Source: Oscillospiraceae bacterium (GTDB taxonomy: Bacteria; Bacillota; Clostridia; Oscillospirales; Ruminococcaceae). Taken from it: 64,000 nt of DNA. The DNA lies in assembly GCA_017483465.1 (NCBI GenBank), contig JAFUWN010000076.1, positions 1-64,000 on the forward strand, read 5' to 3'. The number at the start of each line of letters is the position of its first letter. Position 1 is the first letter of the stretch. Shown piece by piece: positions 2,620 through 32,241 of this stretch. The notes beneath the pieces are model-generated. The model was not told the origin of the DNA. It searched no databases and saw nothing but the letters and a program-made list of their open reading frames with translations. Made by a program: the position numbers and the translations under genes.

Positions 2620-3849
2620 ATGAAATATAAAAAAATTATATGCTGTCTGCTGCTGATGCTGACTCTCTCCGGATGTTCCGGAACTGCCAGTCTGAATGCC
2701 GGTGCTCAGAAACAGAAAATCGAAATTCAGGAACTGACGGACGATTTCAAAAAGAATCAAATGCAATTCGCTGTCAATCTGTTTCAGGAAACTGCCTTGC
2801 AGAATCCGGACGGAAATTTATTAATTTCTCCCTTGTCTGTCATGACAGCACTTTCTATGACGGCAAACGGTGCTAAAAATCAGACTCTTTCTGAAATAGA
2901 ACAGGTGCTCGGCAGTGATATTTCTGATCTGAATCAGAATTTATACAGCTATCTCCAGACTCTGCCGTCAAGCGGAAAAACAAAATTTTCGATTGCAAAT
3001 TCTATCTGGTTCAGAGATACAGAGGCTCTGAAAGTCAATCCGGAGTTTATTCAGAATAATGTCAATTATTATGACTGTGATCTCTATCAGGAAGCCTTTA
3101 CACCGGAAACATGCGATAAAATTAATCAATGGGTTGATAAAAATACAGATCATCAGATTAATCATGTTATTGATCATATGAATCCTGAAGATATGCTGTA
3201 TCTGATCAATGCTCTTTCTTTTGACGGCAAATGGCTCGAACCTTATGAAAAAGATAAGATTGAAAAGCAGAGATTTGAAAATTTCGATCATCAGGGCACA
3301 ACCGTCAGCATGATGAAGTCAGAAGAAATTTATTATATCAGCTCAGACCATGCAGAAGGCTTTTTAAAGCCTTATCAGGACGGGTACAGTTTTGCGGCGA
3401 TTCTTCCGGATGAAGAGATTTCTGTCAATGAGTATATCGCTTCTCTGGATTCTGAAACGCTCTCCGATATGCTGAATCATCCTGATACAAATGCAGAAAT
3501 TATCGCCGGTATTCCGAAATTCAGCAGTGATTTCAATATTTCAGCAAAAGAAATTCTGTTTGAAATGGGAATCCAGACCGCTTTCACAGATGATGCCGAT
3601 TTTTCTGACATGGCAGAATATCAGAATCAGAAAGATGCCCTGAAAATCGGAGAAGTTCTGCATAAAACACATATCGAAGTGGATGAGCAGGGAACAAAAG
3701 CTTCTGCTGTGACGGCCGTCATCATGATGAATAAAGCAGAAGCAATGCAAAAATCTGTCATTCTGAACAGGCCTTTTGTCTATCTGATTATTGATGATGC
3801 CAATAAACTGCCTGTCTTTATCGGCACAGTCAGAGAAATACGGGATTGA
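2620..3849 (+). CDS. Serpin-family lipoprotein 2
   Basis: This is a 409-residue paralogue of the preceding gene with a lipoprotein signal (lipobox LSGC), the conserved 'LLISPLSVMTALSMTANGAK' segment, a hinge 'GTKASAVTAV' and the C-terminal signature 'LNRPFVYLII...PVFIGT'. The 12-bp gap from serpin 1 contains AAAGGGG ahead of ATG, so the two are probably one transcript. The reactive loop after the hinge differs from serpin 1 and is rich in Met, Asn, Lys and Ala. This suggests a different target protease, but the scissile bond cannot be fixed from sequence alone because these loops are longer than in classical serpins. Confidence 0.93.
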   Translation: MKYKKIICCLLLMLTLSGCSGTASLNAGAQKQKIEIQELTDDFKKNQMQFAVNLFQETALQNPDGNLLISPLSVMTALSMTANGAKNQTLSEIEQVLGSDISDLNQNLYSYLQTLPSSGKTKFSIANSIWFRDTEALKVNPEFIQNNVNYYDCDLYQEAFTPETCDKINQWVDKNTDHQINHVIDHMNPEDMLYLINALSFDGKWLEPYEKDKIEKQRFENFDHQGTTVSMMKSEEIYYISSDHAEGFLKPYQDGYSFAAILPDEEISVNEYIASLDSETLSDMLNHPDTNAEIIAGIPKFSSDFNISAKEILFEMGIQTAFTDDADFSDMAEYQNQKDALKIGEVLHKTHIEVDEQGTKASAVTAVIMMNKAEAMQKSVILNRPFVYLIIDDANKLPVFIGTVREIRD

Positions 3850-3874
3850 TTTTTTAAATAAAATATGTTATAAT
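3846..3874 (+). promoter_or_regulatory. Extended -10 promoter before serpin 3
   Basis: TTGATT (3846-3851), a 17-bp spacer and TATAAT (3869-3874) with TGt immediately upstream. Serpin 3 therefore has its own start signal although it sits just after serpin 2. The -35 box overlaps the serpin 2 stop region. Confidence 0.75.
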
Positions 3875-3908
3875 AAAAATAACAGTTCTGAAAAGGAGAA
3901 TGAAACAT

Positions 3909-5333
3909 ATGAAACATAAAAAAATAATATCTGTACTGCTGTTATGCAGCTTCCTGCTCGCCGGATGCGGAGCACAGTCCGAAGTCAGTGATTCTAACAG
4001 TTCGGTAAAAATGGAAGAAACCTCTGCTCCGACAGAAGCACAGACCACAGAACCTGAAACAGAAGCCGTTTCTGAAACCTCTCCGGAAACGGAAACGGAT
4101 TCGGAATCAGAAACCCACGAGGAAACGCCAGAAGAAACCGTCCCGGAAACAGAGGAAAGTACTGCTTCTGTGGAAATCACATCATTAATAGGAGAAAATG
4201 ATATAAGTGCAGAGTTTCAGGAAAATCAAATGAATCTGGCCGTTACACTCCTGCGAAGAAGAGCCGAACAGGATGATAATAAAAATATTCTGATTTCTCC
4301 GCTTTCTGTCTCGACTGCCCTCGCTATGACGGCAAACGGTGCGGACGGCTCTACTAAAACGCAGATGGAACAGTTTTTCAATCAGGATATTGATACACTC
4401 AATACAGATCTGAAAAATTATACAGATTCCCTGACATCTTCAGAAAAAGCGAAATTCGTTTCGGCAAATTCTGTCTGGATTAAACAGACAAATGATATTA
4501 CTGTCAAAGAAGATTTTCTTAAAACAGCGGATGAAGTCTATCAGGCCGAAGTCTTTGAAGAACCTTTTACACCTGATACAAAAGAGAAAATCAATCACTG
4601 GGTGGATGAAAATACAGATCATATGATTGATGAAATTATTGATGATATTAATAAAGATGCTGTGATGTATCTGATTAACGCCCTGACATTCGATGCCCAG
4701 TGGTCAGATCAGTATGATGACTATCAGGTCGAAGACGGTATTTTTACATCTGCTGACGGCACGGAACGGACAGTTTCTATGATGAGTTCCAGAGAATCCG
4801 GCTATCTTGATGACGGCAATGCAACAGGCTTTACGAAGTACTATAAAGGCGGTTATGAATTTGTTGCTTTGCTTCCCAATGAAAATACAGACATCCGGAA
4901 TTATTTAAATACGCTCGATTCTGAAAAAATCCTGGATTTATTGCAGCACCCGCAGGATTTCGATGTTGATGCCAAACTTCCGGCTTTCGAGAGCGAATAT
5001 GAAGCAAATCTGAACGATACTCTCAAAAATATGGGCATAGTGGATGCATTTTCCCATGAAAATGCGGATTTCTCTAAAATGGCAGATGTCAGCGGCCCTG
5101 GTGAAAAGCTTTGTATCAGTAATGTACTGCATAAAACTTATATTTCCGTAGATAAGAACGGTACAAAAGCCGCTGCTGTAACATCTGTTGAAATGATGGC
5201 AACAGGTTCGGCCCCCAGGAAAGAACGGGAAGTCAAAGAAGTCATCCTCGACAGACCGTTTGTCTATATGATCGTAGATACCAGAAATTACCTTCCGTTA
5301 TTTATGGGATTCGTCACAGATATTGAATCATAA
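3909..5333 (+). CDS. Serpin-family lipoprotein 3 with Glu/Thr-rich linker
   Basis: This is a 474-residue serpin with lipobox LAGC. Unlike its two neighbours it carries a linker of about 55 residues rich in Glu, Thr, Ser and Pro between the lipidated Cys and the serpin body, which would hold the inhibitor away from the cell wall. Serpin features are 'ILISPLSVSTALAMTANGAD', the hinge 'GTKAAAVTSV' and 'LDRPFVYMIV...LPLFMGFV'. Two ATGs are possible: 3900, one base after AGGAG, and 3909, ten bases after it. The latter is preferred on spacing. It has its own promoter and a strong terminator, so it can be expressed apart from the first two. Confidence 0.92.
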   Translation: MKHKKIISVLLLCSFLLAGCGAQSEVSDSNSSVKMEETSAPTEAQTTEPETEAVSETSPETETDSESETHEETPEETVPETEESTASVEITSLIGENDISAEFQENQMNLAVTLLRRRAEQDDNKNILISPLSVSTALAMTANGADGSTKTQMEQFFNQDIDTLNTDLKNYTDSLTSSEKAKFVSANSVWIKQTNDITVKEDFLKTADEVYQAEVFEEPFTPDTKEKINHWVDENTDHMIDEIIDDINKDAVMYLINALTFDAQWSDQYDDYQVEDGIFTSADGTERTVSMMSSRESGYLDDGNATGFTKYYKGGYEFVALLPNENTDIRNYLNTLDSEKILDLLQHPQDFDVDAKLPAFESEYEANLNDTLKNMGIVDAFSHENADFSKMADVSGPGEKLCISNVLHKTYISVDKNGTKAAAVTSVEMMATGSAPRKEREVKEVILDRPFVYMIVDTRNYLPLFMGFVTDIES

Positions 5334-5345
5334 CATGATTTTATA

Positions 5346-5383
5346 TGAGCATGTATATCAGTCATACATGCTCATGATTTTTT
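5346..5383 (+). terminator. Terminator after the serpin cluster
   Basis: Stem TGAGCATGTAT / ATACATGCTCA (5346-5374) with a short loop, followed by TGATTTTTT. It closes the serpin block. Confidence 0.85.
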
Positions 5384-5394
5384 ACACAGATTGC

Positions 5395-5423
5395 TTGACT
5401 TTTCAGAAAATCTGCTATATAAT
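5395..5423 (+). promoter_or_regulatory. Promoter of the 188-residue unknown gene
   Basis: TTGACT (5395-5400), 17 bp, TATAAT (5418-5423). This is close to consensus, so the gene downstream should be well expressed. Confidence 0.8.
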
Positions 5424-5460
5424 AATATTATGAAAATTTTCAGGAAAGGAACCTATTCCA

Positions 5461-6027
5461 ATGACCGAATCAGATGTAATTAAAAATGCAAAACGCTGTC
5501 TGGAACTGCTTGCAAAAGGCATCGACCCTCTCACGGGGGAACCCGTTCCGGAAAATGATGTTGTCAGAAAGCCCGCTCTGATCAAATATCTGAATTTTAC
5601 TGCTGATCTTCTGGAAAAAAATTTCTCTGAAATACAGAATCCTGAACGCTTCTTTGTTTCCGAAGAAAGAAAAGCACAATTTCAGGCTGTAAACGATATG
5701 ATAACAATTTCCAATATTTCAAAAGTCATCAATGCCGGAGTTTCTTTTGATGAAAACGGTTTTATTCCGACACAAGGCATTTCTGAATGGCTCGAAAACA
5801 AAGGCCTGCTCGAAAAAAAGGAAATTCCAAACGGAAGTTACCGCAGAATGGCAACAGAGCAAGCCGCTGATTTCGGAATCACAAATCTGTATAATTCTAA
5901 TCATAATTTTAAGAGCGTTATGTTTAACAGGCAGGCTCAGCAGTGGATTTATGATTCTATTGATGAAATTTCAGAATTCTGTACGCAGAATGAACAGAAA
6001 TTTTCCAGAATTAAGATATATCCGTAA
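5461..6027 (+). CDS. Protein of unknown function, 188 residues
   Basis: The family was not recognised. The product is soluble, with no signal peptide or membrane segment. The N-terminus contains 'KGIDPLTGEPVPENDVVR', and the C-terminal half has 'GISEWLENKGLLEKKEIPNG' followed by 'YRRMATEQAADFGI'. The latter reads like a small winged-helix-like element, as in phage antirepressor C-terminal domains, but this is only a resemblance. A near-consensus promoter and AGGAAAGGA precede the ATG. It lies between the serpin terminator and the xylanase and is probably monocistronic. Confidence 0.75.
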   Translation: MTESDVIKNAKRCLELLAKGIDPLTGEPVPENDVVRKPALIKYLNFTADLLEKNFSEIQNPERFFVSEERKAQFQAVNDMITISNISKVINAGVSFDENGFIPTQGISEWLENKGLLEKKEIPNGSYRRMATEQAADFGITNLYNSNHNFKSVMFNRQAQQWIYDSIDEISEFCTQNEQKFSRIKIYP

Positions 6028-6101
6028 TACTTAGATTATGATTTCCGGCTGTATATAAAACGGCTCGAAAATTAAAATAAATTTTAAAGGGGAAATTTTG
6101 T

Positions 6102-9100
6102 ATGAAAAAATCAAGACTCACCGCAGGTATCATGACCGCCGCTATGCTGATTTCAGCTCTGCCCGTCATGAATGCCTATGCCGAAGATGTCGAACTTGTC
6201 AATGATACGTTTGAAGACAGTTTCGGCACATGGAAAGCCCGTACCTCCGGAAGTACGGAATTAAGCCTTTCTGATACATATGCAAATTCCGGAAGCAAGT
6301 CGCTCTATGTCACCGGCAGAACTGTCAGCTGGAACGGTGCCGGAGCTTCCATGATCGGTACTATGTATGCAGGAAAGCAGTATACACTCAGTGTCGCTGT
6401 CATGTATGATGACGAAACAGTCGGCGGTCAGAATCAGCAGTTTAATCTGCAATGCTTATACACAGATGCCAACGGCAAGGAAAATTATAAATATATCAGC
6501 AGTGTCAATGCCAGGGCAGGAGAATGGAGTGTCATCAACGGAACTTATACTGTTCCGGAAGATGCCAAAAATATTGTTGTCTATGTCGAAGCCGCTACAC
6601 TCAGTGATTTCTATATGGATGATTTTACTGTCAAAGGTGAGAAAATCGAGAATACTGATAAAACAGACGGTTTCTCTGATAATTTCGATGACGGAACTGT
6701 CATGGAATGGCAGGGGAGAGGTTCACAGACAACTCTGCAAGTAACGGATAAATACGCTCACAGCGGAACGTATTCGCTCTATACAGACGGCCGTCAGCAG
6801 CTCTGGAACGGTGCAACCTGCAATAAAGCCTTAGTCCTCGAAGCAGGAGGCTATTACAGATTCGGCTGCTATGTCCTCTATGACGGTGATGATTATACAG
6901 ATACACAGAAATTTTCGATCAATCTGCAATATGATCTGAACGGTAAGGAAAATTACTATACAATCTATACAGAGACAGCGAACAAAGGCGAATGGACTTA
7001 TATCGGCACAGAATGCACCATCCCGGAAGGGGCTTCTAACATGTATGTCTATGTCCAGACAGCCTATAAGCCGGAATCTGCCGTAACCAGTCAGGATTTA
7101 ATGGGCTTCTATCTCGATGATATCACCGGAGAAAGACTCCCTGATCCTGCCATTCAGGAGGATATTGCCTCTCTGAAAGATATTTATGCCGATGATTTCA
7201 AAATCGGCTGTGCTGTCGCTGGTGCGGAATTTACACAGGGTGCGACTAAAGATTTGATTCTGAAGCATTATAACAGCGTGACCATCGGAAACGAACTCAA
7301 ACCCGAAGCCGTTCTTGATCAGAGTGCAACTCTCGCTTATATGGAATCCAATAACGGAGATCAGACCAATCCGCAGATTTCTCTGAAACAAGCCTCTGCT
7401 ATGCTCAAATTCTGTGAGGATAATAATCTTGATTTAAGAGGTCATGTCTTAGTATGGCACAGTCAGACTCCGGACTGGTTCTTTAAAGAAAATTATGATG
7501 CTAACGCTGATTTCGTCTCTCCCGAAATCATGGACAAGCGTATGGAAAATTATATCAAGAATGTCATGAATGCCATCAAGACAGAATATCCGAAGCTGAA
7601 TGTTTATTCCTGGGATGTCGTGAACGAAGCCGCTTCCGATTCCGGTACTATGAGAAATGCCGGTGCCTACTCTCAGGGCGACGGCTCTTCCGGATGGGTC
7701 AGTGTCTACGGCGATCAGAGCTATATCAAGAAAGCTTTCACCTATGCGAGAAAATACGCTCCGGAGGGCTGTAAGCTGTTCTATAATGATTATAACGAAT
7801 ACAGTGAGAATAAATTAAAATATATCCAGTCGGATATTCTGAAAGATTTAATCGATGCGAAATTAATTGACGGTATGGGTATGCAGTCGCATATCGGTAT
7901 GAGTTCTCCTTCAATCGCTCAGTATGAAGCCGCTTTAAGAAGCTATGCCGATTTAGGCCTTGAAATTCAGGTCACGGAACTTGATGTATCTCTGAGATCA
8001 AATTCTGATGAAGATCTGCTCGCCTTAGCTGAAAGATACCGTCAGTGCTTCGATATGTATAAGAGAGTCAAGGCAGACGGTGTAAATCTGTCAGCAGTCG
8101 TACTCTGGGGCATTACGGATTCTACCAGCTGGATCGGCGGCTATCCGTTGTTATTCGATAAAGATTATCAGGCCAAAGCCGCTTATTATGCCGTTGCTGA
8201 TACCACCGCAGAAGTACAGACCATCCAGACAGCAAGAGCTTATCTTTATGACGGTTCTGAACAACAACGGCTTCTTGCATTCGATGCACAGACTGAAAAT
8301 GCAATTGGTAATGCAGGAACATTTAAAGCGGCATGGAGTACAAAAAATAATTATCTGACACTCTGTGTAAATGCAAAGAAAGCCGGAACTCTTACCGTTT
8401 CAGGAGAAATGATCGAAAACGGAGCGGCTTCTATCGAACTTCAGACAGGAGAAAATATTTTCCAAGTTGCAATAAAAGATAAAAAATCTCTTGGCGATTC
8501 TCTCCGTATTGATCTGACTCTGAACGGCGAAAACTGGAATTCACTGGGTGAACCTGTTCCATCAAGCTATGGGAAAATTATGATTGCAGAAATTCCAGCG
8601 ATCGCCGAAGCCGTACAGGGAACACCTAAAATCGATGGCGAAATTGATGACATCTGGAAGACTGCGAAAACAATTCAGATAGATAATTATTCTATGGGTA
8701 ACGGTGCGACCGGAACTGCTAAAATTTTATGGGATAACAAGAATATCTATGTTCTGGCAGAAGTCAAAGACCCTGTACTCAGCAAGGCAAGCAATAACAG
8801 CTATGAACAGGATACTGTTGAAATTTTCTTAGATGAGAATAATCATAAATCGACTGCTTATGAAGCGGATGATATTCAGGTCAGAACGAATTTCGATAAC
8901 GAAAAAACTGTCACTGACGGTCTTTCTACAGACAGATTCACATCAGCGACTGCAAAGACTGCTGACGGCTATCTGGTAGAATTTGCAATTCCGTCTACTC
9001 TGGGCGGATTCAAAGCAAATCAGATTGTCGGCTTCGATGCTCAGGTCAATGATGACGGTACAGGCGACGGAAAAAGAACTTCTATTGCAAACTGGTATGA

Positions 9101-14066: not shown

Positions 14067-14095
14067 TTGCACTTTTTGTAAAATCATGCTATAAT
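14067..14095 (+). promoter_or_regulatory. Extended -10 promoter of the TIR-TPR operon
   Basis: TTGCAC (14067-14072), 17 bp, TATAAT (14090-14095) preceded by TGc. It lies about 50 nt before the TIR-TPR start codon. The rest of the 260-bp gap back to degV is AT-rich without a further gene. Confidence 0.8.
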
Positions 14096-14144: not shown

Positions 14145-17100
14145 ATGACAAAGCTGAATTACAGGACCAAAGGAAACAGCTCTCCGGAAGATAAGCCAAA
14201 AGTTTATTTTTCCTGCCATCCGGATGATTTTGAAATGACATTTGAGACAGTCTGCGAAGATATTTTCAAAACACATGACTGTGTGATTTTCTATAAAGAA
14301 GACATGGCCGACACTCTGCCGGAAGAAACCAGAGAAATTGACCTGGGCCGTATGAACCTGTTTGTTTTTCCGGTCACATACCGGTTTCTGAGAGAAAAAA
14401 ACCGTGCTGCCGAGGAAGACCTTGCTTTTGCGAAACAGCAGCTGAAACCGATTCTGCCTGTTTTATTTGAATATCGCACAGAAAGTATTCTTGATTTTTA
14501 CAGCAGACCGGAAATGTTCGGTGAACGGCAGTTCCTCAAAAAATACAGCAGTGACCTCACAGAAATCGGCTTCGGGGAAAAATTGAAAAAATATCTGGAT
14601 CATACTCTGATCGACAGCGATACAGCCGAAAAAATCCGAAAAGCATTCGATGCCTATATTTTTCTCAGTTATCGTAAAAAAGACAGAAAATATGCCAATG
14701 AACTGATGCAGCTCATTCACAGAAATCCTTTGTGCCGAAATATTGCTATCTGGTTTGACGAATTTCTGACACCCGGTGAAAGCTTCAATGCTTCCATCGA
14801 AAAAGCCATGCAGGACAGTCAGCTGGTGACACTGCTGGTGACACCCAGTCTTCTCGAAACACCAAACTATGTTCAGGAAATCGAATACCCTGCGGCCGTG
14901 CAGTCCGGCAAGCCTGTCTTTCCGGCCGAAAAAGTAGAAACCAATATCGAAAAACTGAAAGAAAATTATAAATCCCTTCCGCAGCTGATCAATGCCAATG
15001 ACGAAACCGCATTCCATCAGGCATTTCTGGAAGCCGTAAAAGATATTGTAAGGCATGAAGCCGAACAGGATCCTATGCATAATTATCTGATCGGCCTTGC
15101 CTATCTGGACGGCATTGATGTGGAAATCAATCCCGCATACGGCATAGAGCTGATCACCAAAGCCGCTGAAGCCGATCTCCCGGAAGCCCTGGAGCAAATC
15201 TATGACATGTATGCCAACGGCAATTATGTTTCCCTGGATTATCAGAAAGCTCTGTACTGGGCAGAAAAAGCCTATCATTATGCCCTCCGTACCTACGGTG
15301 AAACGGATGAAGATACGATGTTTGCCCTGCTGATTCTGGCAACTGCTTACAGAGATGTGGGCGATTATGAAAAAGAACTGGAATTGAACCAGAAATGCTA
15401 TGAAATTCAATGTCAGGAACTGGGAGAAGATGATTTTTCTACCCTGCTTTCCCTGAATAATCTGGCACTGGCTTATAATAATCTTGGCGATTATGAAAAA
15501 GCTCTGGAATTAAATAAAAAATGCTATGAAATTGAATGCCGGGAATTCGGGGAAGATTCTTCCGAAACATTGGTTTCACTGGGAAATCTTGCCCTGAGCT
15601 ATAACAATCTGGGCGATTATGAAAAATCTCTGGAATTAAACGAAAAATGCTATGAAATTGAATGCCGGGAATTCGGGGAAGAAAACGAACAGACATTGTT
15701 GGTCTTAAATAATCTTGCCGTTGCACATGTTAATCTCGGCAGTTATGAAAAAGCTCTGGAATTAAACGAAAAATGCTATGAAACCGATTGCAGGACACTC
15801 GGAGAAAATCACCCTACCACACTGCTTTGTCTGAATAATACTGCCTATTCTTATGCCAGACTCGGAGATTATCCAAAAGCACTGGAACTCGGTGAACAAT
15901 GCTATCAGGCATACTGCGAAGTACTCGGAGAAGAACACCCTTCCACTTTGCTGCCGCTGTCCAATCTTGCCGATTATTACAGAAATATGGGCGATTATCA
16001 AAAATCTCTGGAATTGAATCAGAACAGCTATGCCGCCAACTGCAAAGTACTCGGAGAAAAACATCCTTCTGCACTTGCAGCACTGAATGCTCTGACTATG
16101 TCTTATTATTATGTCGGGAATTTTGAAAAAGCGATTTTGCTCGGTCAGAACTGCTATGATCTGCAATGTGAAGTGCTCGGTGAAAAACATCCCCATACCC
16201 TGCTGACATTAAATAATCTTGCTCTGGCTTACAGCGATTCCGGAGAATATGAAAAAGGCCTTGCACTTCATGAAAAAGCTTATCAAATGCAGTACGAAGC
16301 TTTCGGAGAAGAACACCCCACAAGTCTGACACTGCTCGGAAACCTTGCACTTGCCTATGACAATACCGGCCGGTTTGAAACTTCACTGGAACTTCATAAA
16401 AAATGCTATGACATCAGCTGCAGGGTACTCGGTGAGGATCATCCCAATACTTTACTGGAAATGATTAATCTTTCCTCTGCTTACAGCAATATTGACGAGA
16501 TGGAAAAAGCTCTTTCCATTGCTGAAGAAGCTTACAGAATCGGCTGTGAGAAACTCGGTGAGGAACATCCGATTATTCTGACAATCCTGAATAATCTCGC
16601 CGGCCTGCGAGATGTTTACGATGGCAGTGAAGATATACTCGCTCTTTACGAAAAAAACTATGAACTGCATTGTAAAGTCCTCGGTGAAGAACACCCCGAA
16701 ACATTGACTGCACTGGATAATCTGGCTGTCAGCTATATCCAAGCCGGCAATTTTGAAAAAGCGATGCCATTGCAGGAAAAAAGCTATGAACTGCATTGTG
16801 AAATCCTCGGTGAAGAACATCCCAACACATTGAATGCTCTGGATAATCTGGCAAGTGCCTGTGATACAGCAGGGGAAAGCGAAAAAGCACATGAACTTTA
16901 TGAAACCTGCTATGAATTACGCTGTAAAATACTGGGAGAAGAACACCCCAGTACGTTAGGCTCACTGCATACGCTGGCTGTTAATTACACTGATCTGGGA
17001 GATTATGAAAATGCCCTTGCCCTTCATCAGAAAAGCTATGACCTGCACTGTGAAATACATGGCGAAAAACATCCTGATACGCTGAGAGCCTTGAATTTCC

Positions 17101-18431
17101 TGGCTCTTGCATATGAAAATCTTGAAGATCATGAAAATGCAATTGCTGCTCATGAAACATGCTATGCCCTGCGATGTGAAGTCCTGGGAGAAGAAGACCC
17201 TGATACACTGATTTCTTTAAGCAATCTTGCCATCACTTACGGAAATAGCAATCAATTTGACAAATCACAGGAGCTTCTGGAAAAATGCTATGCTCTCCGG
17301 TGCAAAACACTGGGAGAAGATGACTCCGATACTCTCGAAACTCTGGAAGGCCTTGCGATCTCTTACAGAATTCTCGGAGATTTGGAAACCTCTCTGGAAC
17401 TGCATAAAAAATGCTATGCTCTGCAATGCGAAGTGCTGGGTGAACATCATCCCGGTACACTGGCAATACTCAACAATTTTGCCCTGTGTTATCAAGGCCT
17501 TGGCGAATCTGAAAAAGCACTTGAATTTTATGAAACATGCTATCAGTTACGCTGTGAAGTCCTGGGAGAACAAGACCCGGATACCCTGTTATCTTTAAGC
17601 AATCTCGGTCTGATGTACCAGAGTCTGGAACAATATGAAAAAGCAAGGGAACTTCTGGAAAAATGCTATGATCTCTGGTGCGAAGCACAGGGCGAAATGC
17701 ATCCTGATACCATCGATGCACTGGACAGTATTGCCGGCTGTTACAGAGCAGCCGGAGAGTTTGAAACCGCATGGGAACTTTATGAAAAATGCTATGCCCT
17801 GGAATGTGAAGTGTTCGGCAAGGAACATCCTAATACACTGATTACACAGAATAATATTGCCGTGTGCTGTGAAAATCTGGGAGATTATGAAAATGCAATT
17901 GCACTGTATCAAGAATGCTATGCATCATGCTGTCAGGTACTGGGAGAAGAAAACCCCGATACTTTGCAGTTATTAAGCAATCTTGCTGTAGCTTACGGAA
18001 ATACAGACAGATATGAAGAAGCTCTGGAATTATTGGAAAAATGCTATGCTCTGCGGTGTGAAGCTCTGGGAGAAACCGACATCAATACGCTGGATACTCT
18101 GCATAATCTCGGTGTTTGTCACAGACTGACCGGCAATTTTGAAACCGCACGGGAACTTCTGGAAAAATGCTATCAGTCACGCTGTGAAGCATTGGGGAAA
18201 GAACATCCTGATACACTGCTGTCATTAAATCAGCTTGCTATTGCCTGTCAAAATGCAGAAGACTATACAACAGCACTGAAACTGTTCCAGACATGCTATC
18301 AGCTGCAATGTCAGCAATTCGGTGAAGATCATCCTGATACAAAAGAAACTGCCGAAAATATTCAGTACTGCAAAGAACACTCCAAAAAAGAAGGGCTTCT
18401 CTCAAAATTGAAGCACCTGTTTGAAAAATAA
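14145..18431 (+). CDS. Giant TIR-domain protein with 24 kinesin-light-chain-type TPR repeats
   Basis: The 1428-residue protein has four parts. Residues 19-150 form a divergent TIR-like domain ('KVYFSCHPDDFEMTFE'). Residues 168-290 form a clear TIR domain: 'AYIFLSYRKKDRKYA', 'IWFDEFLTPGESF', and a candidate catalytic Glu245 in 'NYVQEIEYP' at the place of the S-x-x-C-x-x-E motif. A Sel1-like helical segment follows (about 310-380). Then come exactly 24 repeats of 42 residues (383-1390), each with L-G-E-x-H-P-x-T-L and mostly C-Y-x3-C, and a lysine-rich tail. TIR domains cleave NAD or act as signalling adaptors, and TPRs bind proteins. The ATG at 14145 follows AGGAAAGG. The next gene starts 21 bp on and is presumably a partner. 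An immune role is inference. Confidence 0.9.
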   Translation: MTKLNYRTKGNSSPEDKPKVYFSCHPDDFEMTFETVCEDIFKTHDCVIFYKEDMADTLPEETREIDLGRMNLFVFPVTYRFLREKNRAAEEDLAFAKQQLKPILPVLFEYRTESILDFYSRPEMFGERQFLKKYSSDLTEIGFGEKLKKYLDHTLIDSDTAEKIRKAFDAYIFLSYRKKDRKYANELMQLIHRNPLCRNIAIWFDEFLTPGESFNASIEKAMQDSQLVTLLVTPSLLETPNYVQEIEYPAAVQSGKPVFPAEKVETNIEKLKENYKSLPQLINANDETAFHQAFLEAVKDIVRHEAEQDPMHNYLIGLAYLDGIDVEINPAYGIELITKAAEADLPEALEQIYDMYANGNYVSLDYQKALYWAEKAYHYALRTYGETDEDTMFALLILATAYRDVGDYEKELELNQKCYEIQCQELGEDDFSTLLSLNNLALAYNNLGDYEKALELNKKCYEIECREFGEDSSETLVSLGNLALSYNNLGDYEKSLELNEKCYEIECREFGEENEQTLLVLNNLAVAHVNLGSYEKALELNEKCYETDCRTLGENHPTTLLCLNNTAYSYARLGDYPKALELGEQCYQAYCEVLGEEHPSTLLPLSNLADYYRNMGDYQKSLELNQNSYAANCKVLGEKHPSALAALNALTMSYYYVGNFEKAILLGQNCYDLQCEVLGEKHPHTLLTLNNLALAYSDSGEYEKGLALHEKAYQMQYEAFGEEHPTSLTLLGNLALAYDNTGRFETSLELHKKCYDISCRVLGEDHPNTLLEMINLSSAYSNIDEMEKALSIAEEAYRIGCEKLGEEHPIILTILNNLAGLRDVYDGSEDILALYEKNYELHCKVLGEEHPETLTALDNLAVSYIQAGNFEKAMPLQEKSYELHCEILGEEHPNTLNALDNLASACDTAGESEKAHELYETCYELRCKILGEEHPSTLGSLHTLAVNYTDLGDYENALALHQKSYDLHCEIHGEKHPDTLRALNFLALAYENLEDHENAIAAHETCYALRCEVLGEEDPDTLISLSNLAITYGNSNQFDKSQELLEKCYALRCKTLGEDDSDTLETLEGLAISYRILGDLETSLELHKKCYALQCEVLGEHHPGTLAILNNFALCYQGLGESEKALEFYETCYQLRCEVLGEQDPDTLLSLSNLGLMYQSLEQYEKARELLEKCYDLWCEAQGEMHPDTIDALDSIAGCYRAAGEFETAWELYEKCYALECEVFGKEHPNTLITQNNIAVCCENLGDYENAIALYQECYASCCQVLGEENPDTLQLLSNLAVAYGNTDRYEEALELLEKCYALRCEALGETDINTLDTLHNLGVCHRLTGNFETARELLEKCYQSRCEALGKEHPDTLLSLNQLAIACQNAEDYTTALKLFQTCYQLQCQQFGEDHPDTKETAENIQYCKEHSKKEGLLSKLKHLFEK
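15291..18314 (+). repeat. 24 tandem 126-bp units encoding 42-residue TPRs
   Basis: Within the TIR-TPR gene, codons 383-1390 divide without gaps into 24 units of 42 codons. Nucleotide identity between units is moderate, so the array is old rather than freshly amplified, although neighbouring units 2-4 are notably similar. Eighteen of 24 units keep both Cys of the C-Y-x3-C motif. Confidence 0.92.
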
Positions 18432-18452
18432 AATGCAATAGGAGGAATCTTC

Positions 18453-20423
18453 ATGTTTTCATGGATTATCTGTATTATTTTATCACTGCTGTGTCTGATC
18501 ATGACACTGTACTGGCTGTTCTTTGCCAAAAAACAGCAGCTCGCAGCAGCATTCTGGTTTCTGATGCTGACAGGCTTTTTCTCGTATTTTCCTACTTATA
18601 TTGAAAAATATGATCTGATCAATGCCGCTGTCTGCGATGCGGTCAACCTGATGCAGATTGTCACACTGAATTCCAATACTTACGAAACCTATCAGCCGCA
18701 GATTGCAAGCAAACTGGTATTTTACCTGTGTATTTCTGTCAGAGGCTGTGTACATCTTGCCGCTCCGCCTCTGTTTGCCTTTGCTACCTATACGTTTATA
18801 CGCAAGTATCTTGAAAAATGGAAGGCTGAAAAAATCGTCAAAAAGAAAAAAAGAATCTATGTCTTTTCCTGTATGAATCTCCAGGCTCAGAAAATCGCTC
18901 TCAGCCTTGCCGCAAATTCGGATAAGTCAACCGCAGTGATTTTCTATGAAACAAGTACCATCTGTGAGGAACTGGAAGAACAGTTCGGTGCAAAAGAAGT
19001 TTCCCATATCAGTCATAAAATGAAACTGGATGTACAGACCAATAAACTCCCGGACATTGATCTGGAAACCTGTGAACTGTATTTCATTCTGCTGAATAAT
19101 TCGGATGAAAATATTGAACTGGGTCTCAGACTGGAGGCATATTATAAAAATAAAATCCGGTTCTGCAATCATATTCATATTATTGCCTTTTCCGAAAACA
19201 GCGATTCTGATGAAACCATTATTGATTCGATCAATACTTCGCTGGATTTGCGTGTAATCAATGCCGACCGGATCTTTTCTTATCGCCTGATGACAGAAAC
19301 ACCGCTGTATCATGCCATTCATCACCAGAAACTTTCTGTTCTGATTTCGGGAGATACTGCTTTAGCAAAAGAGCTTTTGTCAGCCGTCCTGCTGTGCGGA
19401 CAGCTGCCGGATATTACCCTGAAAATTCATCTGATTACAGAACATGCCGAAGCTTTCCGGGAATATCTTGCACTGTATTTCCCGGAAATTCTCTGCTCAG
19501 ACTATCAGATACAGATCTCAGAGGGAACACCGGATAATCCCGCTTATCTGGAGACCATCCGTTCTTATGATGCCGATGTGGATTATGTCATTCTGTGCGA
19601 TCAAGACGACAGTCAGAACGTCCGGACAGCTGTCATGTTAAGACGCTTTTTCCTGACAGATAACAAACAGTTCACACATAAGCCGATTATTGCAGCAAGA
19701 ATTAAAAATACAAAAAAAGCCAATATTATCCGGAAATCCAAATTTGAAATCGAACCGTTCGGAAGTGATGCCCTGCTGTATTCCTATCAGGAAATTACAA
19801 ACTCTGAACTGGAAGCCCTCGCTAAACGAGTACATTTTGCATACTGTGGCATTCCGGAAAATCCGGACGAAACGGCCTGCCTTGAGGCGATACAGTCTTA
19901 TTATGAACTGGAATATAACAGAAAATCCAGTGTAGCCATGGCATTGAGCATTTCTTATAAACTCTGGCAGATGGGATTCAGCATGAAACCCTCTGCTGTG
20001 CCGGATGTTACTGTACTGAAACAGTATCTTGCAGATACGGACTTAACCCGCTGTGCAGAGGCAGAACATCAGAGATGGCTTGCCTATGTCCGGTCTGAAG
20101 GCAGCCGCAGAATGTCAGTGGAAGATGCCGAGATCATTGCCGGGAATGCTCCTCAGCTCATGAAAAAACTGGGCAACTCCGTTTATCTGGGAATGCATAT
20201 GGATATGATTCCGCTTCAGGAGATTTCTGCTGCAACAGCGGAAATTAACCGGAGATGTGCTGAAAATACCAGTTTTGCCCCTAAGAAAGATACTACACAC
20301 ACAGATGAATTTATTCTCAGAGCTTTGCCGGATATTCTTGGAAATGCAAACTGGCAGCGTTATACAGGCGGATATGTCTATAAAATAGAACAGCAAGATC
20401 ATCCGTTGCTTCTGGAATCCTGA
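18453..20423 (+). CDS. Membrane protein with tandem TrkA-N-like Rossmann domains and a RyR-like domain
   Basis: This 656-residue protein has three hydrophobic helices in the first 115 residues (about 2-24, 30-50, 87-115) and then a cytoplasmic part. Two Rossmann-type segments follow, starting near residue 130 ('RIYVFSCMNLQAQKIALSLA') and near 292 ('KLSVLISGDTALAKELLSAV'); they look like the NAD/nucleotide-binding RCK/TrkA-N fold. The C-terminal part resembles the RyR domain: 'AEAEHQRWLAYVRSEG' (His539, Trp542) and later 'MIPLQEI'. Membrane plus two RCK-like domains recalls a ligand-gated channel, but no potassium filter is seen. AGGAGG precedes the ATG, 21 bp after the TIR-TPR gene, and a terminator follows. 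The function is unknown; nucleotide sensing is inference. Confidence 0.8.
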   Translation: MFSWIICIILSLLCLIMTLYWLFFAKKQQLAAAFWFLMLTGFFSYFPTYIEKYDLINAAVCDAVNLMQIVTLNSNTYETYQPQIASKLVFYLCISVRGCVHLAAPPLFAFATYTFIRKYLEKWKAEKIVKKKKRIYVFSCMNLQAQKIALSLAANSDKSTAVIFYETSTICEELEEQFGAKEVSHISHKMKLDVQTNKLPDIDLETCELYFILLNNSDENIELGLRLEAYYKNKIRFCNHIHIIAFSENSDSDETIIDSINTSLDLRVINADRIFSYRLMTETPLYHAIHHQKLSVLISGDTALAKELLSAVLLCGQLPDITLKIHLITEHAEAFREYLALYFPEILCSDYQIQISEGTPDNPAYLETIRSYDADVDYVILCDQDDSQNVRTAVMLRRFFLTDNKQFTHKPIIAARIKNTKKANIIRKSKFEIEPFGSDALLYSYQEITNSELEALAKRVHFAYCGIPENPDETACLEAIQSYYELEYNRKSSVAMALSISYKLWQMGFSMKPSAVPDVTVLKQYLADTDLTRCAEAEHQRWLAYVRSEGSRRMSVEDAEIIAGNAPQLMKKLGNSVYLGMHMDMIPLQEISAATAEINRRCAENTSFAPKKDTTHTDEFILRALPDILGNANWQRYTGGYVYKIEQQDHPLLLES

Positions 20424-20424
20424 C

Positions 20425-20467
20425 AAACCCTCCCTGTATGCCGTATTACGCCATACAGGGAGGGTTT
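20425..20467 (+). terminator. Terminator of the TIR-TPR operon
   Basis: A 16-bp stem (AAACCCTCCCTGTATG with its complement, 20425-20467) has an 11-base loop and ends in TTTCTG. Position right after the stop codon and stem strength support it, although the U-run is short. Confidence 0.8.
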
Positions 20468-27265: not shown

Positions 27266-29743
27266 TCAGCAGACTTTTTCAGGCTTGTTTTTAGTCAGCG
27301 GACAAAGATTGATCGCCGGTTTTTCCTGATAATTGGGGCCAAGATAATAATTGTATTCAGCCAGTGCATTTTTCAGTTTGGCAAAATAATCGCTTTCACG
27401 GGAATTCGGCAGTACGTTTATGCCCCGTATGAATTCAGGCATATCCTGAGTCATTTCCACATACCAATAGGGGAACAGCGGCTTTTCACTGCTCTTTTCC
27501 TGCTCTGCCTTTGCAAGAATATCTTTCCAGCTATTTATATTATTATATTTCTGCACCAGTCTTTTTCTGACCAGATGTGACAGATATCTGTCTATTCTGC
27601 CCTCCCGCTGTTCATAGGCTGCAGGAGTTCTGGGAATACTCCAGTGCAGTATCTGATGACAGTAGTTATGGAAATCAAGTCCCTCCTGTGCTACCGAAGT
27701 GGTAGAGATAATAAAGGGATAAAAAGGAGAATTGAACATGAACTGCAGATTTTTCTGATGTGTATCACGGTGTGCTCCCTGATCGCTGTCATCATCGGTG
27801 AATCTCTCTGCAAAGCCGCAGGAATATGAAAATTTTTCTTTCAGGCTGCTGCTGTCCGAAATGTCTGAAATATACTTGTCATAGCATATCACCCTTGTGG
27901 GAGAAAGCTGGATATTTCCGGTTTTTTCTCCTGTCAGACAGGCATACATCCGTTCAAACTTGTTTTTAAGCTCTTTCAGTTTATTATCATTGGCATCTTC
28001 TTTCAGACCGATCAGCAAAGAGTATTCTTCAAGCACACTTTTAAGACCGCCCATAGCGGCATATATTTTGACAGCTTTCTTAAGATCAGAAGTTTCTGCT
28101 GCATAGCAGATCACATGGCGATAATGATAGAGATACTGTCGTATAACTTTTGCAAGTGCCTCTCTTGCAGCATTATATGCTTGGTTTCCGTTTGCTTCAG
28201 GCAGATACGGATTGATGTCTATCTCCTCCGGGGTGCCTGATATGTCGCCTTTTAATTTTTCTAATTCTTTCTGCCGTTCACGATTTATTTTAGAGAAATA
28301 GTATGCTGAACAGGCTGTTGACATTCTGTAATTTCCGAATACCAGCGTTTTGGAATAATTCCTGTTTGTCCAGAAAGGATTATTACAGTTTCGATAATCA
28401 GCAGGGATATTCGTGCTGATTGCTGGCGGAATCCACAGCATAAGGCTCAGACTGTCACTCTGATAGGCCATTTTTTTCAGCAGTGAAATACCGCTGTGTT
28501 CCTCAGGCGAGAGAGATTCTTTAAAAAGCCCACTGTGATTATAATAGAACGTATGTTCATTCTTGTTCTTATCATTGCCCTTTATAGAAGTATATCTTGT
28601 ACAGAATTTTGCAAAGGACGGACATTCCTTGACCAGTGCAATAAACTTGTTTATTTCTTCTGTCAGTTTCCATTCAGGACAGCTGTTTTTATAATGCTGA
28701 TAAAGTTTTTTTGTATAATCAGTATGCTTCACAGCTTCTCCGGGGGTGATATACAGTTCGGTCACTTCGTCATTCTTGTTCTGGTTTGGATAGAACATAG
28801 CCCTTTCAGATCGGCACAGAATGTTATCATACAGAAAATTTTCATCATCCAGTTTAATGCCGTTGAGGTTTTTATTATAAATAAATTTCACCAGCTTTTC
28901 AAATTCCTCATTAGGATTTTTGGCAGCAGCCTCAGCCAGAGTGTTATCTTCGCTTTCTTCAGCGTTATCGTTATTCTTAGCCGCAAGCCCTGTATCATCT
29001 TTATAGGGTTGGGAATTCATTTTCCGGACATCATCGGCGGGCATTTCGTAGGGAGTCGCTGAAAGCATGAGAGTGTAAGAGGCCTTATTCAGCATTTTTA
29101 TAAAAAGCTCATGTCCGTCTATGTCATCATACAGCAGTCTGGCATAGTTCTGAAATTCATCAAGTATCACCATATCAGGCGGCAGGGTATTGCATATCCT
29201 ATCTGTGATGATATATTTTCTGATAATCTCGAACCATTGTTCTTTTTCTTCAATCTCGATCCATTTTTCTTTTGTCATAGGCAAAGAGTATTTTTTAGAT
29301 GTATCCAGTTCGGACAGCAGTTTATCTCTTATTTGATAGTGAGTAAAGCCTTTTCCATAGGCGGCTTCTTCCTGATTGAAATGACTGCCTGCATTGGTAA
29401 AAGTAGTGGCAGGTGTAACAGAATAAATAAATATGCCGTTCTGATTTCCGGGGGGTATCTGCATTGAGAGTCTTTCCGTGCTTGTTTCCTGTGCATTCTG
29501 GATATTTGATTTCAGACTGTCCATATTCTGACCGGTGATTCTCAGGTTACCGCAAACATAGTATACAATAAACTGATTACCCTTTTTATGTTTTGCAAGC
29601 TCCTCTATCACTTTGGCAGCTACTACAGTTTTGCCAAGTCCTACCTCGTCAGCCAGCAGATACCTCTTTACAGGATTCTCTTTACGGGTGAATACATGTA
29701 CGATATGCTCTGCTGTTGATTTTTGTAAATTCGTCAGGTTCAT
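27266..29743 (-). CDS. SNF2/RapA-like superfamily 2 helicase
   Basis: This is an 825-residue protein with SF2 helicase motifs in order: Walker A 'ADEVGLGKTVVAAKVIEE' (about residue 31), motif II 'ILDEFQNYA', motif III 'LMLSATPYEMP', motif V 'ISTTSVAQEGLDF', motif VI 'EQREGRIDRY'. The 'VAQEGLDF...EQREGRIDR' pattern matches RapA/HepA-type SNF2 translocases. A long insertion of low similarity separates the two RecA lobes. The ATG overlaps the stop codon of the upstream PLD gene (ATGA). Helicases paired with PLD nucleases occur in phage-defence systems such as DISARM, but the set of genes here matches none that I can name with confidence. Confidence 0.88.
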   Translation of the reverse strand: MNLTNLQKSTAEHIVHVFTRKENPVKRYLLADEVGLGKTVVAAKVIEELAKHKKGNQFIVYYVCGNLRITGQNMDSLKSNIQNAQETSTERLSMQIPPGNQNGIFIYSVTPATTFTNAGSHFNQEEAAYGKGFTHYQIRDKLLSELDTSKKYSLPMTKEKWIEIEEKEQWFEIIRKYIITDRICNTLPPDMVILDEFQNYARLLYDDIDGHELFIKMLNKASYTLMLSATPYEMPADDVRKMNSQPYKDDTGLAAKNNDNAEESEDNTLAEAAAKNPNEEFEKLVKFIYNKNLNGIKLDDENFLYDNILCRSERAMFYPNQNKNDEVTELYITPGEAVKHTDYTKKLYQHYKNSCPEWKLTEEINKFIALVKECPSFAKFCTRYTSIKGNDKNKNEHTFYYNHSGLFKESLSPEEHSGISLLKKMAYQSDSLSLMLWIPPAISTNIPADYRNCNNPFWTNRNYSKTLVFGNYRMSTACSAYYFSKINRERQKELEKLKGDISGTPEEIDINPYLPEANGNQAYNAAREALAKVIRQYLYHYRHVICYAAETSDLKKAVKIYAAMGGLKSVLEEYSLLIGLKEDANDNKLKELKNKFERMYACLTGEKTGNIQLSPTRVICYDKYISDISDSSSLKEKFSYSCGFAERFTDDDSDQGAHRDTHQKNLQFMFNSPFYPFIISTTSVAQEGLDFHNYCHQILHWSIPRTPAAYEQREGRIDRYLSHLVRKRLVQKYNNINSWKDILAKAEQEKSSEKPLFPYWYVEMTQDMPEFIRGINVLPNSRESDYFAKLKNALAEYNYYLGPNYQEKPAINLCPLTKNKPEKVC

Positions 29744-31533
29744 TTTTCACTTGTCTCCTTTATTTTTTCAAGATACTTAATAAGATTGTCTGTTTCCTTA
29801 CTGTAAGTCTTGAACAGATAATTCAGCCAGACAAGCATATCATCAATAGTATCATCATTGCTGAGTTTTTCTGCCGCTTCTTTTTTTGCGTTGATGGCGT
29901 GCAGAGAGTCTTTGACAAATTTAATGAAATCCTCATCGGACAGCAGCATTTTGCATTTTGTGATTTTTTCAAATGCCTTGTCTTTTTCATCAAAGTGAAC
30001 GCCCTCAGGTTCGGGGATAAGATCGTCTATTGATCTTATTTCATCTTCGGGGAGAGCTTTTTTCAGTTCTTCATATGCCTTGCCATGCCAGCCGCAGCTG
30101 ATACCTTCCGGAGATTTCAGAGCAAGACGATAACTGCAATTCTGGTTTCCGTCTGTTATGAGAATCAGATCTGTAAAATTATTTTTTGTGATGTCTTTAA
30201 ATATTATTATTTGATTTGATTTTTCCGGCACTGTTACACCGCTGTCAAGAGTTGCAAGGCTTACCGTCAGCGGAACATCTTCCTTGTTAGTGATCTGAAA
30301 GCTGATACTGTTCGATTGGTATTCAGCATTTTCTATCTCCACTTTAAAACTGAATACTGTTTCTTCATCACAGTCTTCAATTTCAACATTCCCATCTTCC
30401 GGGAGAGTTTTGTAGCCACAGTAGATCTGATCACTGAACTTTGCCACACCGTCCGAAGGATCAGAATAAAACCAGCCTTGTGAGCTTTTTTCTGCCGTGA
30501 ATTTGACCAGCACTTCTTCATTTATTCCGTTAAGAGCTGCATTGGAGCAATTGGCTGAACCGATAAATGTCAGTATCGTATCATCATTATCATTCCAGAA
30601 CGTATAGGATTTGATATGCAGAGCTTTAGGATATTTCTTATTTTTATAAGGAGCTAAATAGAAATAATTGTCTTTGCATTCCTCTTTTTTCGTCCATGTT
30701 CCGGAATTATTTTTATCTTCATACATATCCTTGAAATTGCAGAGATACTGCACTTTGCATTCCGGATTGCTGTTTATCAGCCCCGCCGTAGGATTCATGG
30801 AACAGATACGCAGATGATCGTAATTCTCAGCGGCAGTATTCAGCATTTGTTGAAAATTTGTATTCTTGCCGAAAAAAATCTCCGGTACGGCACTACAGCC
30901 CTTAACTCTGAGGCAAGTATTTCCCAGTTCTGTAAGCATAGCACTGACTTTTTCATTTTTTTTCAGAACTTCTTCTCCGTAATATTCCCTGAAAAAATCG
31001 CTCAGAGCCTGACCAGCCTGATGAAAATCCTCTTTTTCATTACTGCTTTCCAGTATGACTCCGGCTTCGATATAATTACTCCAGGTCAGGTTCTTACTGG
31101 AAATACATACCCTGAAAAAGCTCTTTCCCTCATGATTCCTGAACTGTATCAGTATAATTTTCGGGTGGAAAAGTCCGCCTTTCACCTCGACGGGAGTGCA
31201 GTATTTATGGAATATATACATAGCATAATTGCCGTTTTGGGTTCTGAAATAGGAGGGTTCTTCATACTCACGCTTGTTTTTGCCGTCATAAAAAATATGA
31301 AAGGGAAGTTCCTCTTGATTGTCTTTGATATACCTGTTAGGATTTTTCAGTGTACCAGACACCAGCTCTGATTTGTTGACGGCCAGTATCATGGCAGGAA
31401 TCAGCCGAAGCATATCCTTAGCAAGCGACCATGTGACAAGTTCGGCATGAGCGATTGTAAAGCCTTTAGGGGGATAGAAAATATCCCTATAAAGATTTAT
31501 CTGCGAATGATACATGATTTTACTAAGGGTCAT
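29740..31533 (-). CDS. Phospholipase D-like nuclease domain protein
   Basis: This is a 597-residue protein with a divergent pair of PLD active-site motifs. The first is 'FHPKIILIQF' followed by 'ISSKNLT' (about 122-155). The second is 'LHIKSYTFW' followed by 'FIGSANCSNAAL' (about 305-335). In the family, two H-x-K-...-S/G-x-N motifs form one active site, cutting phosphodiester bonds without metal. The C-terminal 250 residues are of unknown family and may bind the partner helicase. It is coupled by ATGA overlaps to the gene before and the gene after it, so the three products are made together. Confidence 0.8.
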   Translation of the reverse strand: MTLSKIMYHSQINLYRDIFYPPKGFTIAHAELVTWSLAKDMLRLIPAMILAVNKSELVSGTLKNPNRYIKDNQEELPFHIFYDGKNKREYEEPSYFRTQNGNYAMYIFHKYCTPVEVKGGLFHPKIILIQFRNHEGKSFFRVCISSKNLTWSNYIEAGVILESSNEKEDFHQAGQALSDFFREYYGEEVLKKNEKVSAMLTELGNTCLRVKGCSAVPEIFFGKNTNFQQMLNTAAENYDHLRICSMNPTAGLINSNPECKVQYLCNFKDMYEDKNNSGTWTKKEECKDNYFYLAPYKNKKYPKALHIKSYTFWNDNDDTILTFIGSANCSNAALNGINEEVLVKFTAEKSSQGWFYSDPSDGVAKFSDQIYCGYKTLPEDGNVEIEDCDEETVFSFKVEIENAEYQSNSISFQITNKEDVPLTVSLATLDSGVTVPEKSNQIIIFKDITKNNFTDLILITDGNQNCSYRLALKSPEGISCGWHGKAYEELKKALPEDEIRSIDDLIPEPEGVHFDEKDKAFEKITKCKMLLSDEDFIKFVKDSLHAINAKKEAAEKLSNDDTIDDMLVWLNYLFKTYSKETDNLIKYLEKIKETSEK

Positions 31534-31997
31534 ATGCTGTTATCTCCTGTTATTATTTTCAAAATTTTATTCAGGTCTTCAGAACACCCTGGAATGTTGA
31601 CTTTATCTTTTTCAGATGAAGCAGAAAGTTTACCGTTATTTTCTGTAAATACCACTCTCTTGCCGTTCAGTTCCTGATTGATCTCGATCAGCCAGTAATG
31701 CTCTTGCTTCTGGCCTTTATCAGAAGCATACAGTATTACATATACGGGAGTATGCGTATTTTCCAGACATTTATTAACAGCAGAAACAGATATGCCCCAC
31801 CAGACAGTGCTTCCTACATAGTATACAGCTTTGCCGTTTATCAGCACGATCTGTGCAGGAGTATAGTTCGGTATCTCGTATGATGGATTACTTTTCCTGA
31901 GATAGTTTTTAAAATCTTCAAAATACTGACGGCTTGTTTTGGTATGATGCAGCTGCTGTATATCATTATAAAAAGTACTTCCGATAGAATGATTCAT
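31530..31997 (-). CDS. Small protein of unknown function, first gene of helicase-PLD operon
   Basis: The family was not recognised. The product is 155 residues, soluble, starting at the ATG that follows AAGGAGAATAGT; the frame extends further upstream but without a better start. It contains 'QIVLINGKAVYYVGSTVWWG' and 'HTPVYVILYASDKG', an alternating hydrophobic pattern that suggests a small alpha/beta fold. It is the promoter-proximal gene of the operon and overlaps the PLD start codon by four bases. In a defence operon this position could belong to a sensor or specificity factor, which is inference. Confidence 0.7.
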   Translation of the reverse strand: MNHSIGSTFYNDIQQLHHTKTSRQYFEDFKNYLRKSNPSYEIPNYTPAQIVLINGKAVYYVGSTVWWGISVSAVNKCLENTHTPVYVILYASDKGQKQEHYWLIEINQELNGKRVVFTENNGKLSASSEKDKVNIPGCSEDLNKILKIITGDNSI

Positions 31998-32034
31998 ACT
32001 ATTCTCCTTTGCATACAATCTTTTTATAAATATT

Positions 32035-32063
32035 ATTATAGCATAACAGGCCGGAAAAATCAA
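32035..32063 (-). promoter_or_regulatory. Extended -10 promoter of the helicase-PLD operon
   Basis: On the minus strand TTGATT (32063-32058), 17 bp, TATAAT (32040-32035) with TGc directly upstream of the -10 box. Confidence 0.78.
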
Positions 32064-32241
32064 GAAAAAATTCAGCTCCGGAGCAGTCACAGGGCTTTTA
32101 TGAATAATTTGCAGAGTTTGTTAACTAAAGAATATAAAAATAATAACAATCCGATTATATACAAATAGTATTATAATTAGGCGTGATAAACAAAGAAATT
32201 ATCCATAAATTAGACAATAGGTATATTTTATCGGCTGTCTA

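Follow-up and report, generated by a model that had tools for sequence, protein, structure and literature searches.

A TIR-TPR gene and an adjacent RyR-domain membrane protein gene in an Oscillospiraceae bacterium: a candidate Thoeris-like signalling unit

In a 64,000-nucleotide stretch of DNA from an Oscillospiraceae bacterium (positions 1 to 64,000 of contig JAFUWN010000076.1, assembly GCA_017483465.1; hereafter, the window), we analysed two neighbouring genes: gene 1, which encodes a TIR protein with a long TPR array, and gene 2, which encodes a membrane protein with Rossmann regions and a RyR domain. They lie on the same strand, 21 bp apart. The reading that we favour, with a confidence somewhat above even, is that they form a two-gene Thoeris-like immune signalling unit, in which the RyR/RCK membrane protein would be the receptor-effector of the signal. 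The features of the locus are the following:

14067..14095, forward strand: promoter-like element, read by eye: TTGCAC (14067-14072), 17 nt, TATAAT (14090-14095), with TGC before the -10
14145..18431, forward strand: gene 1, intact, TIR-like + TIR + Sel1/TPR protein of 1428 residues; ATG start, GAAAGG upstream
14178..14624, forward strand: second, divergent TIR-like domain of gene 1, residues 12-160, found by profile-profile comparison
14658..14942, forward strand: TIR_2 domain of gene 1, residues 172-265 (Pfam PF13676, E 1e-10, above the Pfam cut-off)
14883..14885, forward strand: codon of Glu247, candidate catalytic glutamate, invariant in 18/18 aligned TIR proteins
15300..18350, forward strand: 24-unit TPR array with a 42-residue period (ends approximate)
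18453..20423, forward strand: gene 2, intact, membrane/Rossmann/RyR protein of 656 residues; ATG start, AGGAGG upstream
18465..18812, forward strand: three membrane segments, residues about 5-24, 28-53 and 90-120, from hydropathy averaged over 49 family proteins
18840..19307, forward strand: putative first Rossmann/RCK-like region, residues 130-285, supported indirectly via the collinear relative L158
19305..19832, forward strand: second Rossmann region, TrkA_N type, residues 285-460 (95.7%, E 1e-8 in profile-profile comparison with TrkA_N)
20055..20267, forward strand: RyR (R12) domain, residues 535-605, with H539, W542 and H582 kept and N599 replacing the catalytic Asp
20425..20467, forward strand: intrinsic-terminator-type hairpin after gene 2, with 21-nt arms at 20425-20445 and 20447-20467

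The two genes are predicted to be a single transcription unit. The arms of the hairpin are 95% complementary, and its RNA fold (-33 kcal/mol, z -7.0) was equalled by none of 200 shuffles; the promoter-like element was not listed by a consensus promoter scan. The layout given in the original prediction, which a model had made from the sequence of the window (two genes 21 bp apart, one promoter, one terminator), is borne out by the intact reading frames and the hairpin, together with a promoter recognised by eye.

Domain composition of the two proteins

The TIR_2 domain of gene 1 is the sole TIR_2 match in its genome and, with its score, confirms the TIR domain claimed in the original prediction. 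The catalytic glutamate named there, Glu245, varies among the relatives of gene 1 (by eye), and the conserved residue is instead Glu247: F173, S175 and E247 are invariant across the aligned TIR proteins. These 18 proteins, all matching TIR_2 at E 0.001, are candidates picked with purpose-built models, the TIR proteins of loci L068, L055, L062 and L090 being left out.

The N-terminal domain at residues 12-160, which profile comparison identifies as TIR-like, had been overlooked. It matched the family's own TIR domain at 98% (E 2e-13) and other TIR domains at 69% (E 5e-5); eight control pairings between domains taken to be unrelated scored 0.1 to 4.8%. Since no conserved Glu was seen by eye in this region of the homologues inspected, the domain is probably non-catalytic.

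A Sel1-like stretch lies between the TIR domain and the TPR array. The array itself is as originally described, with 24 repeats: among 26 matches to the repeat anchors, 24 are in exact 42-residue register, from residue 426 to 1392, and two are off register, while Pfam recognises 23 TPR_10 stretches. Gene 1 also scores far above the cut-off of NCBIfam NF040586, the FxSxx-COOH system TPR protein (752 bits, cut-off 300). This identity was rejected on the domain make-up of gene 1: the best stretch falls in the TPR repeats, and a scan with 21 Pfam families at E 0.001 gave no NB-ARC/AP-ATPase match between TIR and TPR.

As a single sequence, gene 2 gave no match to PADLOC and NCBIfam models at E 0.1 and no match to solved structures up to E 1. 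A single-sequence search recovered a homologue over residues 6-633 (E 7e-49), which, together with others, led to a family alignment of 49 proteins; weak matches in genome G102, plus one each in G138 and G292, were left out. The invariant residues of this alignment are S139, G300, E538, R541, W542, G550 and H582, and 48/49 proteins have H539. The averaged hydropathy of the family has three hydrophobic segments, in agreement with the three membrane helices previously proposed, and no TVGYG motif was found by eye in gene 2.

The two TrkA-N/RCK-like Rossmann domains of the original prediction fared differently. The second is recovered directly by the profile-profile match to TrkA_N, whereas the first is reached only indirectly, through the distant relative L158. 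Between residues 116 and 568 the latter follows the family model collinearly, and it carries TrkA_N (residues 127-217, E 1e-14) and RyR (residues 523-591, E 4e-18), both above the cut-off. No profile-profile match was obtained between the first region and the second (1.0%). At the second region, another relative (L017:3223-5199) matches TrkA_N above the Pfam cut-off, and the family profile gave a weaker match, 6e-4, to the ubiquitin-activating enzyme E1.

The RyR domain and its candidate ligand pocket

The RyR-like domain claimed for gene 2 was recovered with the family profile, which matched solved RyR domains of an RyR1 chimera (6uhi, 5e-16), a bacterial RyR-like protein (6uag, 1.5e-7) and human RyR3 (9l92, 1.7e-4). 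Furthermore, the RyR region of the family matched solitary RyR proteins at 97.5% (E 6.5e-12) in profile-profile comparison.

In a report on phage RyR-domain proteins (PMC13232231), the phage protein RyDEP is a glycosidase that binds and cleaves 2'/3'cADPR via H75, W78, H100 and D117, and among the other phage RyR homologues 6/8 bound these signals and 0/8 cleaved them. With the residues named there, the equivalents in gene 2 are H539, W542, H582 and N599, so that three of the four named ligand residues are kept; two pocket spacings are the same (H-W, 3 and 3; H-D/N, 17 and 17), and the middle one differs (40 in gene 2 vs 22 in RyDEP). This mapping was made from the alignment to other RyR domains and from spacing, with the RyDEP sequence itself outside the alignment. 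The catalytic Asp position holds Asp in 41/49 family proteins and Asn in the window protein, which therefore does not have the RyDEP-type catalytic His-Asp dyad.

This enzymology bears on an alternative in which the RyR domain would be a brake: it would bind or degrade the TIR signal, gene 2 would protect or reset, and TIR alone would be the effector, via NAD+ depletion. The glycosidase activity of RyDEP, the Asp retained in most of the family and the scarcity of RyR genes in regions found with gene 1 alone (see below) are in its favour. On the other side, N599 replaces the cleavage Asp in the window, so that for gene 2 the role of receptor is more probable than that of an enzyme degrading the signal; a membrane anchor and RCK-type domains would exceed the needs of a soluble signal eraser; and of the eight phage homologues six bound the signals and none cleaved them. 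We consider this alternative unlikely.

A different possibility is that the ligand is read elsewhere in gene 2: the RCK-type Rossmann region(s) would sense NAD+/NADH, the TIR domain would drain NAD+, the loss of the dinucleotide would open the membrane protein, and the RyR domain would be structural. TrkA_N/RCK domains are generally nucleotide binders, and the second Rossmann region is of the TrkA_N type. However, the glycine motif of the window protein is degenerate, while the RyR residues are near-invariant, and TIR genes also pair with other RyR architectures (the 578-residue RyR protein of L162, the RelA_SpoT-RyR protein of L047 and the solitary RyR protein of L167). Among the readings that we considered, this one appears the least probable.

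Recurrence and distribution of the TIR-RyR pairing

One set of 197 family genomes was searched both for TIR_2 and for RyR (PF02026), and the distances between the matches were compared by eye. TIR_2 gave 114 matches in 51 genomes and PF02026 gave 14 matches in 12 genomes; the window gene 2 is outside the 14 because PF02026 misses it. Six of the 14 RyR matches have TIR_2 within 5 kb, five of them within 0.25 kb, against an expectation of 0.13 pairs within 5 kb (P 5e-9, with the TIR density taken from TIR-bearing genomes only). HsdS, used as a control for defence islands and also compared by eye, has TIR_2 within 5 kb in 3 among the 150 matches listed (Fisher p 9e-6 vs RyR), the HsdS rows being neither independent nor collapsed by locus. 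TIR_2 is present in 10/12 RyR genomes vs 41/185 others (p 3e-5). The surveyed RyR proteins are mixed, some being membrane proteins of about 470 residues and others solitary RyR domains. As a domain pair, TIR and RyR are linked far above background.

The neighbourhoods of the gene 2 family were examined at 47 distinct loci: 43, plus three more from the single-sequence gene 2 search, plus the window. Duplicate pairs (L010/L050, L013/L056, L014/L075, L017/L058) were counted once, the close kin L066/L068 and L055/L060 were each counted individually, and L016, a partial match of 1097 residues, was left out. At 12/47 loci a TIR gene is in the same-strand run, taken as the same operon, and both gene orders occur (window, L011, L017, L053, L060, L066, L068, L070, L071, L073, L074 and L085). 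In L017 the TIR gene is joined to the gene 2 relative through a solitary RyR gene, and the TIR of L068, counted here, is a 174-residue partial protein with TIR_2 below the cut-off. Beyond these 12, the TIR gene of L084 lies beyond an AAA+ gene, and L052, L055, L065, L069, L077 and L081 have TIR nearby or on the opposite strand, that of L055 being an uncounted 74-residue fragment. CAP12-type TIR genes are found at L062 and L090, in one case as a fusion with prokaryotic STING, and DUF4062 genes at L012, L083 and L091. The nine stretches L154-L162, taken from the other genomes of a wider profile search (see below), lie outside this set: TIR or DUF4062 is near the RyR gene in 7/9 (L156-L162) and in neither L154 nor L155. 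They include a TIR448-RyR535 pair in L157 and an abutting RyR578-TIR631 pair in L162 (protein lengths in residues); DUF4062 is close to an RyR membrane gene in L158 and to an RyR gene in L161.

The TIR partners vary (beta-propeller-like, leucine-rich repeat, TPR/Sel1 and short TIR proteins), and one operonic locus, L074, is from Coriobacteriaceae, outside the phylum. On a tree of the 49 proteins, whose bootstrap is not fully settled, explaining the 12 operonic cases takes 11 changes, of which well-supported branches force at least 6, and shuffled labels need 10.9 on average. As many changes are needed as for shuffled labels, so the TIR pairing is scattered and was not inherited once.

A search with gene 1 alone returned 11 regions, with a RyR gene in two of them (L041 and L047). 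Adding the window and the gene 2 loci L081 and L084, which were not drawn independently of RyR, gives 5/14 gene-1-family regions with a RyR gene. The closest parallel to the window is L041, where a gene-1-family TIR gene (826 residues), a TPR gene (375) and a RyR gene (473) are consecutive on one strand. In L047, a RelA_SpoT protein with a C-terminal RyR domain (3240-6119) is encoded just upstream of the gene-1-family TIR gene (6136-8187).

Some neighbourhoods of gene 2 relatives hold other arrangements. In L012 and L014 the relatives are followed by vWA and tubulin-like genes, apparently a different recurring operon. L054:2390-6898 encodes a 1503-residue fusion of a protein kinase, a Rossmann/RyR-like part and a CARF-PDDEXK-type nuclease, with a gene 2 relative and an AAA+ gene near. 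In L090:1-3749, a RyR-type open reading frame at the contig end, a TIR-STING protein (CAP12 TIR + prokaryotic STING) and a gene 2 relative are on one strand.

The gene 2 family is rare and patchy. Relatives were found in 8/297 family genomes (own genome counted) and in 0/36 other same-genus genomes searched, and a wider profile search gave a gene-2-type match in 8/398 phylum genomes (the window's own counted). Six stretches of viral contigs matched the search pattern and none was a gene 2 relative, while a plasmid search with relative L017 as query gave no match. The phage search returned a single unannotated 22-kb record, MT835673.1, with genes that by eye resemble those of bacteria. In five related genomes, compared for an empty site over contig stretches of only 8-19 kb, degV was the sole match of 11 window proteins. 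In the window, 6.8 kb downstream of the pair, three abutting genes on the reverse strand (27269-32090) form a Zac-like defence operon, with matches to the PADLOC models of ZacC (2.6e-105) and ZacB (2.8e-25) and no match for the third gene. The patchy distribution and this nearby operon are compatible with defence. The intergenic segment 20560-20740, which separates gene 2 from a GH30-like gene, occurs again elsewhere in the genome (contig C91) as a 178-bp copy with 96% identity, and there are two short partial copies; it is possibly a mobile repeat or a shared control region.

Such a distribution also bears on whether the pair is a housekeeping signalling device, that is, a stress or ion-homeostasis regulator built of TIR and RCK modules and not an immune system. 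RCK domains are frequent in potassium transport, relatives of gene 2 also adjoin vWA/tubulin-like and AAA+ genes, and the assignment to immunity is itself read from sequence. Against it stand the rarity of the family, the partner change scattered on the tree, and the TIR, TIR-STING and DUF4062 neighbours together with the Zac-like operon. A housekeeping role seems to us quite unlikely.

Proposed mechanism and relation to known systems

Several results weigh against the immune signalling unit that we favour. At 23/47 gene 2 loci there is no TIR or TIR-like neighbour by the models used (the Pfam scan covered 10 selected neighbour proteins and several contigs are short, so the count may overlook CAP12-type or other divergent TIR genes), and the partners of several relatives are instead Clp-type AAA+ or vWA/tubulin-like genes. 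Likewise, 9/11 gene-1-only regions are without a RyR gene in the available stretch. Searched alone against Pfam, gene 2 gives nothing above the cut-off (TrkA_N at E 0.089, RyR absent at E 0.1); its first Rossmann region has no direct profile-profile match to TrkA_N (0.3%); the GxGxxG motif of the second, kept in 44/49 family proteins, is GxTxxA in the window; and its branch on the tree is very long, with 3.7 changes per column. The original prediction had named, as evidence against itself, homologues that usually occur apart: this is in part what we find for the single families of gene 1 and gene 2, whereas the TIR-RyR domain pair occurs together above background.

In the proposed Thoeris-like unit, the TPR array, either alone or helped by the N-terminal TIR-like domain, would sense infection and release the TIR activity. 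Via E247, the TIR domain would make from NAD+ a signal of the ADP-ribose type (2'cADPR, 3'cADPR or a related molecule), which the RyR domain of gene 2 would bind. The Rossmann regions, like an RCK gating ring, would relay the change to the three membrane helices; this part would turn leaky or conducting, and the growth of the infected cell would halt. The earlier suggestion that TIR makes a nucleotide signal and the membrane RCK/RyR protein reads it thereby gains strong circumstantial support, from the scattered recurrent pairing, the 197-genome survey and the phage RyR biochemistry of PMC13232231.

A broader reading, which we hold tentatively, is that RyR domains serve bacteria in general as a receptor of the ADP-ribose signals that TIR proteins make, a counterpart of CARF or SLOG with varied outputs. 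These would be an RCK-type membrane channel in the window pair, an alarmone synthetase in the RelA_SpoT-RyR protein of L047, and kinase/nuclease fusions in L054. In that case the pair here might function as a bacterial ion channel with cyclic-ADP-ribose-type signals as its gating ligands, and it would parallel, independently or as an ancestral form, the link between cyclic ADP-ribose (cADPR) and the ryanodine receptor in animals.

Among known systems, Thoeris (ThsB TIR + ThsA) shares with the window an adjacent gene pair made of a TIR enzyme and a protein with a nucleotide-reading domain; the window TIR weakly matches ThsB models, and its protein has a conserved candidate catalytic Glu. The pair differs in its second protein, which has three membrane segments and joins RyR with RCK-type domains, and in its TIR, which shares one chain with 24 TPRs and a further TIR-like domain. 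ThsA-type effector domains (SLOG, Macro, caspase) gave no Pfam, PADLOC or NCBIfam match in gene 2 at E 0.1.

With phage RyDEP and RyR-domain sponges (PMC13232231), gene 2 shares the domain family (PF02026) at profile level, the three ligand residues and the two spacings. Unlike them, it is bacterial, membrane-bound and Rossmann-fused, has Asn at the catalytic Asp, and is proposed to be a receptor, not an evasion protein. As in gene 2, the membrane helices of RCK-gated channels (MthK, BK and plant CASTOR; PMC6697748) are N-terminal and precede the RCK-type Rossmann region(s). Gene 2 differs by its extra C-terminal RyR domain, and its pore is putative; by eye it has no TVGYG motif, and neither has CASTOR. 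DUF4062 (Swarozyc) is reported in PMC13174449 as a TIR-like NADase. That system shares TIR-like NADase defence with our candidate, and DUF4062 genes are found near RyR membrane genes in L012, L083, L091 and L158 and near the RyR gene of L161. The window TIR is instead a canonical TIR_2, encoded together with a membrane protein.

No PADLOC or NCBIfam model named gene 2, or any of its relatives that were tested, as the effector of a known system, in line with the original prediction, which could match the pair to no named system. In the literature searched we found no description of a bacterial TIR-RyR membrane pair, part of which may already stand in TIR-system or comparative-genomics work.

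Whether ryanodine receptors read cyclic ADP-ribose has long been disputed in animal calcium signalling. If our reading is true, the pair would represent a new class of membrane receptor-effector in TIR immunity, and it would account for the presence in phages of RyR-domain proteins able to bind TIR signals or cleave them. Being small and tractable, it would also serve as a bacterial model in which to ask whether cyclic ADP-ribose is read by RyR domains.

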